A stretch of DNA of 36,112 nucleotides from the NCBI GenBank assembly GCA_029938135.1, contig JAPYOO010000003.1, positions 16,225 to 52,336 on the forward strand, in the 5' to 3' direction. Below are positions 1 through 3,755 of this stretch, piece after piece. This stretch comes from Bermanella sp. Its GTDB lineage: Bacteria > Pseudomonadota > Gammaproteobacteria > Pseudomonadales > Oceanobacteraceae. Within the stretch, counting starts at the first letter, position 1. Each line of letters begins with the position of its first letter. The position numbers and the translations under genes are program-made. Under the pieces are notes generated by a model. The model ran no database searches. It saw only the letters and a list, made by a program, of their open reading frames with translations, and was not told the DNA's origin.

Positions 1-1556
1 CCAGGGTATGGGTTGGCTGCAACACACGTTAAGCAATCCGTATTTACCGAACCACTTGGGTCCGACGCAAGTATTTCTTCCTGACTTTGAAAAAAGGACA
101 TATTAACATCCACTACCGTGTCCTTATCCCATTGATAACCAAAGCCCATTCCATACATGTTACCGCCACCAAGGGGCGCCATTACATTGCGTCTATTGTC
201 TGGAATGGTTGCTGCTCGTTGCTCTATACCCATACGTGCTACCAAGCGAGAACTTAGCTGATATTCTAGGCCCAGTCCAAAGCTCCATGTACTTTTATAG
301 TTAAGGTTTTGCTCTAAGGTGGTGGCAGTAATTTCGGTGGGTGCCAATATTTTTGCAGCATTTAGAAAGTCCAGCTGTCGATCAAACTCAAAATAGAATG
401 ACTCCCATTCATCATAATCGGCCCAGTCCGCATCTATGTTGACCTGAAGCTTGTCAAAGAAGCGAAACTTAAAGCCCGTAGAGAAATGCTGAGGATAAGT
501 GAACTCTGTTGTCACGTAGCCTGTTTCCTTACTAGTACCGGTGGGCAGCTGGAACATCGCACCAATAATGGCTCCAAAAATAGAGCTTCGAAAGCGTTGA
601 AAAAAGCCTGCAAATTCATCGGTGTAATCAAATTCAAATTCACCCGTTAGCTGATCCTTACCCTCACTTTGGTAGGCCATGCCCCAAGCAAACCAGTCAT
701 TAGGCTCCCATAACAAACCAAAGTTAAAGGTAGGCGACATACTGGTTTCAAGTTGCATGCTCAGATTGCCGATGTCTTGATAAGGGCCTATTCGACCACC
801 ACATAATGCAATGAATGGTACTAAGGGGTCGTCCCCTGTTCCACCCTCTTCACAACCAAATGCATCTTGTAAAAGCTCTGCAGCAGACATTAGAATATTT
901 ACCGCTCTAACATCTTGGGATATGGCAAAACCTTGGTGTGAGAGTAAAAAACCGGCACCAATAGATAATTCATCGCTCACTTTATAACCAAAAGACGGTG
1001 ACAAATACGTTAGGCGTTGCATTGCCACCTGTTTACCCTGATACCGCCCAGGGTTGTCGTCCTCTTCTTTTACGAAGCCTGCTGCCATAGGGATGTAGCT
1101 GAACGTGGCAAAAGTGAATTTAGACCCTGGAGGATTGATGGATATACCACCGCCTGGTGCCATTGCGACTGGTAGGTGCAATGGAAAAATACCGTAACCG
1201 GGAATATACAGCCCACCGATGGATTCACTTTTTTGACCGGCTACTGGGTCATCACGAAAATCCAACAAACCCGGATCTACCTCTTCGCCACTACTATTTG
1301 TCGCGTATCCGTCAGGTATGGCGTACTCAGACTCCATACTTAAGAGAACACTCATTATGGTGACACTCAGTTGGCGACCCTTGAGTTTTGTTAATCCGGC
1401 AGGATTATAATGAACAGAAGCAAGGCCAGTTGGGTCTGCGGTTACCGCATTTCCAAGTGACAGCGCTTTAGAGTCAATTGATAGCGACTGACCCATTTGA
1501 GCGTGATTGAGTGTGCTTAAAGTTAAGCAGGCAAGCGTGAAAATTAACTTCTTCAT
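1..1556 (-). CDS. OMPP1/FadL/TodX-family outer membrane protein (partial, 3' end beyond left edge)
   Basis: Manual reverse-strand translation from ATG at 1556 gives an open frame to the window edge: MKKLIFTLACLTLSTLNHAQMGQSLSIDSKALSLGNAVTADPTGLASVHYNPAGLTKLKGRQLS..., with signal peptide and the FadL-like 'SLGNAvTAdptGlasvhyNPAGLtkLkG' motif. Absent from the ORF track because it is open at the edge. Confidence 0.85.
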   Translation of the reverse strand, partial: MKKLIFTLACLTLSTLNHAQMGQSLSIDSKALSLGNAVTADPTGLASVHYNPAGLTKLKGRQLSVTIMSVLLSMESEYAIPDGYATNSSGEEVDPGLLDFRDDPVAGQKSESIGGLYIPGYGIFPLHLPVAMAPGGGISINPPGSKFTFATFSYIPMAAGFVKEEDDNPGRYQGKQVAMQRLTYLSPSFGYKVSDELSIGAGFLLSHQGFAISQDVRAVNILMSAAELLQDAFGCEEGGTGDDPLVPFIALCGGRIGPYQDIGNLSMQLETSMSPTFNFGLLWEPNDWFAWGMAYQSEGKDQLTGEFEFDYTDEFAGFFQRFRSSIFGAIIGAMFQLPTGTSKETGYVTTEFTYPQHFSTGFKFRFFDKLQVNIDADWADYDEWESFYFEFDRQLDFLNAAKILAPTEITATTLEQNLNYKSTWSFGLGLEYQLSSRLVARMGIEQRAATIPDNRRNVMAPLGGGNMYGMGFGYQWDKDTVVDVNMSFFQSQEEILASDPSGSVNTDCLTCVAANPYP

Positions 1557-1569
1557 ATTCAGGTACTCG

Positions 1570-2580
1570 TTACGAAGATGCTGGTTCAAACTTGGCTTTA
1601 AGGCCATTCAAACTTATGGGCATAGATAAAGACAGCATGATGTCTGGTGAGTCTTCTGTTAGACCAAATCCAACACCGACATTAGTAATGGTTGTGGGTG
1701 ATACCCGAATTCCCAAGCTAAAGTTCATTACACCCGACATAGTCGCTGCCGTTTCAGCCACGCCACCATTTCTGAATATGTATTTACTTTTGTCCGAGAA
1801 AGACCCCTGAAACGACATGCTTAAAGACACGTCGTAAGATAATGAGTAGGCAAAGCCGCCGGACATAGCAACGGAAACCCCAGGGTGTACTTCTTCTAAA
1901 AGCTGGCCGCTTCTTACTTGATTAACATCCTTTTCTGGAATTGCATAACTTAGACTTGTTGAGCCAAATAACATAACGGGATCCACTACCTTGTTAACGG
2001 ACATTCCGCCTGACAAAGAGTAATAACCACTGCCTATTGGTAAATTTTTTCCGGCTATTGTTCTAAATGGGCTTCCGCCTGTTTTAGTTTTAAACGATCC
2101 TGTAACGGTACGGCTTAGTTCACCAGGCACGTAAGCATAGGGCTGCCAACGAGCATTGACTGATACATCGCCAATGCCAGCTCCACTTAATGAATCCGCA
2201 GTGTCATATTTAGTGACTAAAGGCACGCTGAGGCCCAGTGTTAGATTATTTAGGTAGCCAAAATCAAAGGAGAAATTATTGGTCAGGTTATGAGTTGCTG
2301 ATGGGGTGACATCAAATGCACGCACCGAATTGCCAGAAAACTCAATATTGAGCCTTTGGTCAGCTGTATAGCTGTAGCTCATGCTGTAACTCATTGATGT
2401 TTGTCCCTTTTTCATCAAGGAGTAGCTATTTTCAGTGGCTTCAAATACCTCCTCTAGACTTTTTTCTTGTGTCGCGTCTTCGTCACTTTTAGAAAGTGCT
2501 TCACGAGCATCGGACACATCTGCCCAGCCAGAGAGACTGAATGTGTATAAAAATATTCCGTATAAATACCACAGACGCAT
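1570..2580 (-). CDS. Predicted outer-membrane beta-barrel protein with N-terminal charged/helical segment
   Basis: 336 aa; signal peptide (MRLWYLYGIFLYTFSLSGWA), acidic/helical stretch (DVSDAREALSKSDEDATQEKSLEEVFEATENSYSLMKK), then alternating amphipathic beta pattern ending in strand-like 'DIMLSLSMPISLNGLKAKFEPASS'. 13-bp gap to the FadL gene. Confidence 0.65.
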   Translation of the reverse strand: MRLWYLYGIFLYTFSLSGWADVSDAREALSKSDEDATQEKSLEEVFEATENSYSLMKKGQTSMSYSMSYSYTADQRLNIEFSGNSVRAFDVTPSATHNLTNNFSFDFGYLNNLTLGLSVPLVTKYDTADSLSGAGIGDVSVNARWQPYAYVPGELSRTVTGSFKTKTGGSPFRTIAGKNLPIGSGYYSLSGGMSVNKVVDPVMLFGSTSLSYAIPEKDVNQVRSGQLLEEVHPGVSVAMSGGFAYSLSYDVSLSMSFQGSFSDKSKYIFRNGGVAETAATMSGVMNFSLGIRVSPTTITNVGVGFGLTEDSPDIMLSLSMPISLNGLKAKFEPASS

Positions 2581-2602
2581 TGTAGCAAACCTTTTTTTAT
2601 AA

Positions 2603-3481
2603 TTATTTTCTTCTAAATCTAATTTCTTTTTCTACAACAACAGTTGGCGCGTAAATTGTATTTGCTTGTTCTGGATCGAAGTCCTCACCCATATCCGAAG
2701 TTATGAGGAGGTCATCTTTCCAATAAGCATTATTCTTTCCACGGGCCACTGCATTATAAAACTCGCTAGACTCTTTCATGTGGTCCACAGGAAAAACGTC
2801 TTTAAAATCTCGATACGCCATCTGCGTAAAGGTGCGCTCATCGATCACGCGTAAATCTTCGTCTCTTAATTCAAGCCCGCCTACCGGTTTGTGGCCGTTT
2901 GGAAACACTATAAAGAGTACATTTCTATCCCAGATTTGCATGAAACGGGACAAGGTAAAGCTGATATTCCCTAATGCCGGATCTGCCACATATACGTGAC
3001 CGTCTTTAACCGCTCGAACGACAATGAAATGCTTAAACCCTGCATATTCAATAGGTGCAATTGCTGGGTGATCCAGCTTAATTAAGTCTTCTTTTTCAGC
3101 TCTAAAGCCGCCCGAAGGGTGGCCAAGAGCTGTTACTAGGCGTTTCATGTCGAGCAATGAAAAGCCACGGCGCTCTACGATTTTTTCACTGTCTCCAAAC
3201 TGGAGCAGGCCTTCCATTACTTGTCGTTCTTGGAAGTTTCGGCCCAAATAAAAGTCTAACAGGGTCGTTAATGCAGCGGATCCACAACTGTAATCGTAAG
3301 CTTGGCGTATAACATTATTGTATTTAAACTCACTTAGCGGCTCGATCGACTGGTGCTGGATAATAGTGTTTTCACCAAAACCAGTTTCAAAATAGACAAT
3401 GCCTTTAGGCTGAGGGTCTATTTCAACGAATTCAGTCAGCATGGTATAGCCGAGTATGGATGCCATTATTAGAACGATCAT
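2603..3481 (-). CDS. C39-family cysteine peptidase-like protein (exported/anchored)
   Basis: N-terminal hydrophobic anchor; 'RQAYDYSCGSAALTTLLDFYLG' (Gln + catalytic Cys context), 'GFKHFIVVRAVKDGHVYVADPALGN' (catalytic His/Asp context) typical of C39 domains. 22-bp gap to the barrel gene. Confidence 0.85.
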   Translation of the reverse strand: MIVLIMASILGYTMLTEFVEIDPQPKGIVYFETGFGENTIIQHQSIEPLSEFKYNNVIRQAYDYSCGSAALTTLLDFYLGRNFQERQVMEGLLQFGDSEKIVERRGFSLLDMKRLVTALGHPSGGFRAEKEDLIKLDHPAIAPIEYAGFKHFIVVRAVKDGHVYVADPALGNISFTLSRFMQIWDRNVLFIVFPNGHKPVGGLELRDEDLRVIDERTFTQMAYRDFKDVFPVDHMKESSEFYNAVARGKNNAYWKDDLLITSDMGEDFDPEQANTIYAPTVVVEKEIRFRRK

Positions 3482-3755
3482 TGAATCGCTAAGTCACTTT
3501 TAAAGTTGTTATTGTTATTTTGTGTCACTAAGACTTACGCATTGTTACATTTAATGGCGCAACTCGCCAAGCCCTAATCACTTGCCTTTTAGTGAATATC
3601 AGCTAAAGGGATAAGAAAATTCACAAGCTAGCTTTTATAGGCGCACATTTGTGCTAGTAATCTGATCAACTGTTAATCAATCATTAGAAATACTGATAAA
3701 ACCTACCTAATTTGTACATAGATGGCTAAAATGCGCATCCAATCTTTGGTGCACT

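Follow-up and report, generated by a model that had tools for sequence, protein, structure and literature searches.

We propose that three genes at the left end of a 36,112-nucleotide stretch of a Bermanella genome (hereafter the window) belong to a Fil system in which the peptidase FilB trims, and the outer-membrane barrel FilC exports, secreted precursors of the DUF6160/FilA family that go on to form a pilus-like filament, with the substrates encoded in Bermanella at sites unlinked to the operon. We put the probability of this reading at about 0.8. It is based on the identity of the genes, their synteny, their co-occurrence with DUF6160, a conserved leader pattern, and the homology of FilA to the subunit of a solved filament.

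A Fil locus in Bermanella

The three genes lie on the minus strand with spacings of 22 and 13 bp, as the sequence-only reading had described, and their open reading frames, at 2603-3481, 1570-2580, and 3..1556, agree with that description. Pfam, NCBIfam, and the catalytic residues identify filB (2603..3481) as encoding a 292 aa C39 cysteine peptidase that is predicted to be periplasmic or membrane-anchored; filC (1570..2580) encodes a 336 aa FapF-like outer-membrane barrel with an N-terminal helical segment (from NCBIfam, PDB sequences, and fold), and filD (1..1556) a FadL/OMPP1-family outer-membrane protein of which 518 aa are visible (from Toluene_X and NCBIfam). filD starts at 1556 (MKKLIF...) rather than at 1607, where an in-frame ATG would make it longer.

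Judged by sequence, the triplet is the Bermanella version of FilB-FilC-FilD of the Acinetobacter “putative pilus system”. The best NCBIfam match of each protein is the corresponding Fil model, with 265.6 bits for FilB (cut-off 475), 329.3 bits for FilC (cut-off 630), and 458.4 bits for FilD (cut-off 970), these cut-offs having been curated on Acinetobacter and all window scores falling under them. The second-best matches are FapD for FilB and FapF for FilC.

FilB matches the Pfam Peptidase_C39 family (5e-17), and its catalytic set of Q60 (oxyanion), C66, H151, and D167 is unchanged in ten diverse homologues, in keeping with the intact Cys/His/Asp contexts first read from the sequence. It is 89% identical to the FilB of Bermanella sp. 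47_1433, which places the window in Bermanella or a genus very near it, and is the sole Peptidase_C39 (PF03412) protein found in the assembly, which is about 90% complete. Marinobacter halophilus (L247, G321:C11:460353-460832) has a second stand-alone C39 peptidase besides FilB, one that is closer to FapD (147 bits).

Pfam alone leaves FilC unnamed (just DUF2490, E 0.14); NCBIfam and the PDB named it. A predicted helix at residues 23-49 precedes the barrel, which agrees with the likely helical segment noted earlier, and the suspected likeness to FapF is found both by sequence (PDB 5o65/5o67/5o68, E 1e-11) and by fold. The 18 best PDB matches of the FilC AlphaFold2 model (pLDDT 67.6) are all FapF chains, with E values down to 7e-18 and TM-scores, normalised by target, of 0.71-0.85. 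In FilC homologues from two distant genomes (L127:3253-4719 and L128:7358-8860, in G254 and G054), the helix and barrel are preceded by additional N-terminal sequence similar to an OmpA-like domain. The third gene had been read as OMPP1/FadL-type and FilD indeed matches Toluene_X/FadL (3e-59).

Position 1 of the window directly follows an assembly gap, a stretch of Ns in C407 (G000:C407:16125-16224) that removes the 3' end of filD and the 5' part of filE. By comparison with a Bermanella relative (L030), about 320 bp are lost, corresponding to some 21 filD codons and 85 filE codons; because the loss is so small, a substrate gene hidden in the gap is unnecessary. Beyond the gap lies the C-terminal part of a MalM-like/“YTWVD” protein that aligns with the filE of Bermanella relatives, showing filE to be present downstream, and the match of a relative to the FilE model is 20.6 bits only. 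The ppsA-like gene further along the same contig is broken by a second N run. There is no filF at the locus and no match to the FilF model among the proteins scanned, and a promoter and terminator scan found no excess over shuffled sequences.

Conservation of the locus

In the family sample, filC is present in 36 of 45 genomes, and the order of the locus is [filA]-filB-filC-filD-filE, flanked by pabB and ppsR. The triplet of C39 peptidase, barrel, and FadL protein is conserved across genera, so the lack of conservation that would have refuted the sequence-only reading does not apply. Of 80 named gammaproteobacterial loci, drawn from Bermanella, Thalassolituus, Marinobacter, Hahella, Kistimonas, Alcanivorax, Pseudomonas, Acinetobacter, and other genera, 79 carry filBCD as an unbroken run, and the remaining one is cut short where its contig ends. 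In 45 of the 80, filB has a FilA-type gene at most 6 kb upstream. In most family members outside Bermanella, an alpha/beta-hydrolase-like gene (“LLLLHGAGVPGE”; L028:8281-9129 and equivalents) sits between filE and ppsR.

The likeness to Acinetobacter Fil (NCBIfam NF050077-NF050080 and NF033645; filA-filF) extends to the order and homology of FilB, FilC, FilD, and FilE, to FilA lying upstream in relatives, and to matches of the FilA profile in the window genome; the difference is that the Bermanella operon is without filA and its FilA-type genes are dispersed.

The likely substrate family

What, then, does the Bermanella locus export? The most likely substrate is the secreted FilA/DUF6160 family. 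In relatives, the gene upstream of filB encodes a secreted DUF6160 (PF19657) protein that matches the FilA model, while filA is missing from all eight Bermanella-genus loci examined. In the window, the interval 3482..3755 (no strand), which separates filB from the divergent pabB-like gene, holds neither filA nor a remnant of it: tblastn with FilA sequences upstream of filB gave a best E of 0.40, and all three frames on the filB strand are closed. The window genome has seven DUF6160 matches (E<=0.01), all on other contigs, and two of these proteins, on contigs C218 and C326, match the FilA NCBIfam model (61 and 36 bits). Most FilA-type proteins carry ...SIGS..I.dinl.G...kI[YW]GH at their extreme C-terminus (L044, L043, L168, and others), and the DUF6160/FilA-type protein encoded at C218:2094-3203 (minus strand) ends in ...SGTTLKIYGH.

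The sequence-only reading had placed the substrate left of position 1 or elsewhere. The former is ruled out, the next genes there being the filE remnant, ppsR, and ppsA; the latter holds, with DUF6160 proteins encoded on other contigs.

The DUF6160 genes also show arrangements of their own. A recurrent cluster of three (L119, G000:C603, and L133, in G004), encoding proteins of about 380, 220, and 810-850 aa, adjoins a gene with a 2-isopropylmalate-synthase-like motif (DTTMRDGEQSPG), and other genera repeatedly have comparable clusters that include one protein of about 800 aa. Two related, FilC-bearing genomes (G182 and G295; L125, L126, L129, L130, and L134) have 15-17 DUF6160 matches, mostly small (100-270 aa) and with C-termini that are without the Gly-His motif.

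Co-occurrence of FilC and DUF6160 supports the pairing. In the class sample, FilC (>=198 bits) occurs in 6 of 274 genomes and DUF6160 in exactly those 6, while DUF6160 is absent from all 23 genomes whose only FapF-like barrels are weaker (<=88 bits). In the phylum sample, DUF6160 is present above cut-off in 9/9 FilC genomes versus 1/390 others (Fisher 1.6e-17), p-values here being too small because the genomes are related. Contrasts within genera go beyond what descent alone gives: genus g231 includes two genomes with both FilC and DUF6160 and, among those listed, five with neither, and genus g233 has two with both and one with neither. In the family sample, DUF6160 is found in 36/36 filC genomes versus 1/9 others, and all 14 named FilB genomes carry it, with 3-12 matches each. 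There are counter-cases. The single family exception (G041, 96% complete) has 8 DUF6160 matches with FilB and FilC not found, an absence that may be due to an assembly gap; G433 and, with DUF6160 below cut-off, G505 also carry DUF6160 without FilC.

A double-glycine-like leader after the Sec signal

DUF6160 proteins have a fixed propeptide of 15-16 residues after the predicted Sec cut (an example FilA leader 20-mer is ELTSIDDATLSGMTGQAGIS). In 152 DUF6160 N-termini, with the conserved Gly numbered -2, the distance from the Sec-site Ala to Gly(-2) is 13-14 residues in 151. Positions -12 and -7 are hydrophobic in 100% and -15 in 98%; -4 is hydrophobic in 66%, the rest being mostly Thr or Ala. 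Gly stands at -2 in 148 and Gln at -1 in 144. The leaders of C39 double-glycine substrates are hydrophobic at -12, -7, and -4, with Gly at -2 and Gly, Ala, or Ser at -1 (PMC6363468). The DUF6160 leaders agree at -12, -7, -4, and Gly -2, but differ in having Gln at -1 and in following a Sec signal.

The leader motif is found in 134/153 DUF6160 matches versus 8/3519 other open reading frames, a contrast that is partly circular since the profile used to collect the proteins contained the leader region; the match of the leader register to LahT is free of this circularity. One exception occurs in the window genome, where the protein on contig C605 has a degenerate leader (...EQASAKSG). For the C218 protein, AlphaFold2 predicts a helix on the leader segment (residues 27-34) at low confidence.

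Homology to a solved filament

A search of the PDB with a FilA-type profile returned one chain, 9XFV_A (25 copies; E 9e-14), from an entry titled “Pilus-like-alpha, a bacteria pilus-like structure obtained from a Karst cave”. Its subunit fits the FilA profile at both ends, the mature N-terminus and the C-terminal motif, and the environmental 9XFV is nearest to the Pseudomonas FilA type, its closest relatives in our set being Pseudomonas FilA proteins encoded beside filB. A single FilA protein (L037) searched against the PDB missed 9XFV, which was found by both the profile and a Pseudomonas FilA, and comparison of a FilA model with 9XFV by Foldseek was weak (E 0.095). At the level of sequence homology, 9XFV independently supports filament formation by the FilA family.

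Residue 1 of 9XFV (DGVSI) aligns with position +1, right after Gly-Gln, in a family whose members start there mostly with AG or DG. The start of the chain lends indirect support to a cut after Gly-Gln, although the first modelled residue could be a modelling choice. The C-terminus of 9XFV aligns with the conserved FilA C-terminal motif, and the filament subunit keeps that end. We found no paper linking 9XFV to Fil, nor the paper describing 9XFV itself.

Relation to Fap and other explanations

The locus had been read as a Fap-related or parallel system, and this is borne out in that FilC resembles FapF by sequence and fold and FilB scores 119 bits against the FapD model. As in Pseudomonas Fap (FapD, FapF; PDB 5o65), a stand-alone periplasmic C39 peptidase is paired with a helix-plus-barrel exporter; in Fil, however, the likely substrates are DUF6160 proteins and not FapB/C repeats, the FadL-family FilD is additional, and the phyletic distribution differs. 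The window locus is a member of the Fil gene set, Fap-like but not Fap. A true functional-amyloid Fap system, with FilB and FilC acting as FapD and FapF to export a FapB/FapC-like amyloid, would account for FapF being the best fold match of FilC and for the FapD and FapF model scores (119 bits for FilB, 58 bits for FilC), yet these scores are far under the FapD and FapF cut-offs (330 and 700) and far under the scores against the Fil models. The proposed substrates are DUF6160/FilA proteins by their matches; none of those in the window genome matches a Fap family, and no FapB or FapC stands at the locus. In addition, the genomes with FapF-like barrels only have no DUF6160, and the FilA relative 9XFV was deposited as pilus-like. 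We give Fap very little chance and set it aside on the grounds of scores, substrates, and co-occurrence. A search with the FapD model in six genomes, P. aeruginosa PA7 among them, mostly returned FilB itself.

It is improbable, though a shade less so, that FilB and FilC export DUF6160 while another protease removes the leader, the target of FilB being FilC or FilE. This has a precedent in that the target of FapD was still open in 2017, when processing of FapE or FapF was suggested (PMC5557850). Against it, the DUF6160 leader has the register and length of a C39 leader, the mature filament subunit begins at the predicted cut site, and FilB is the only C39 peptidase found in the genome. Hardly credible is an operon for uptake of hydrophobic compounds centred on FadL, in which the peptidase and the barrel would be passengers or act in quality control: filD is clearly of the FadL family, but filBCD stays together in nearly every locus, often with a secreted filA-type gene upstream, the co-occurrence with DUF6160 is near-perfect, the barrel is of the FapF-like export kind, and no catabolic genes adjoin the locus.

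A proposed mechanism

For the reading that FilB trims and FilC exports DUF6160/FilA precursors, we envisage that precursors made from several separate Bermanella loci would reach the periplasm via Sec, where removal of the signal peptide would leave the 15-16-residue, double-glycine-leader-like propeptide ending in Gly-Gln. FilB, facing the periplasm, would bind the leader helix through the hydrophobic residues at -12, -7, and -4 and cleave after Gln. The mature subunit would then cross the FapF-like barrel FilC, presumably aided by FilD and FilE, and polymerise outside into a pilus-like filament. We infer FilB to be the leader-cutting enzyme and FilC the export pore; FilD and FilE may have parts in export, and the Bermanella DUF6160 proteins would themselves form filaments. 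FilB shares its catalytic residues with the C39 domains of peptide ABC exporters (LahT/PCAT1), but would be periplasmic and is without an ABC exporter.

More tentatively, and at somewhat under even odds, FilBCDE may be a general branch of outer-membrane export, a single machine serving many unlinked cargoes. Each DUF6160 protein would carry a Sec signal and a Gly-Gln propeptide read by the C39 peptidase, the C-terminal Tyr/Trp-Gly-His of the FilA type may be bound by FilD, and one genome could produce several filaments or surface proteins. PorV of type IX secretion is also a member of the FadL family.

Meaning for Fil systems

Relative to the known kinds of system, three features are new: Gln at position -1, a leader that comes after a Sec signal and is predicted to be periplasmic, and likely substrates that are multi-copy and dispersed. 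Our literature search on FilB, FilC, and FilD, on DUF6160 function, and on the fil operon returned only a FilF vaccine paper and passing mentions, and no paper joining FilBCD, DUF6160, and a filament was found, subscription literature being mostly outside that search.

Three separate items are brought together here: the genes of a “putative pilus system”, the DUF6160 family, and the orphan environmental structure 9XFV. A concrete cut site is proposed for a stand-alone periplasmic C39 peptidase, which would bear on many bacteria, the hosts of Fil systems including Acinetobacter, Pseudomonas, Marinobacter, Alcanivorax, Hahella, and Thalassolituus.
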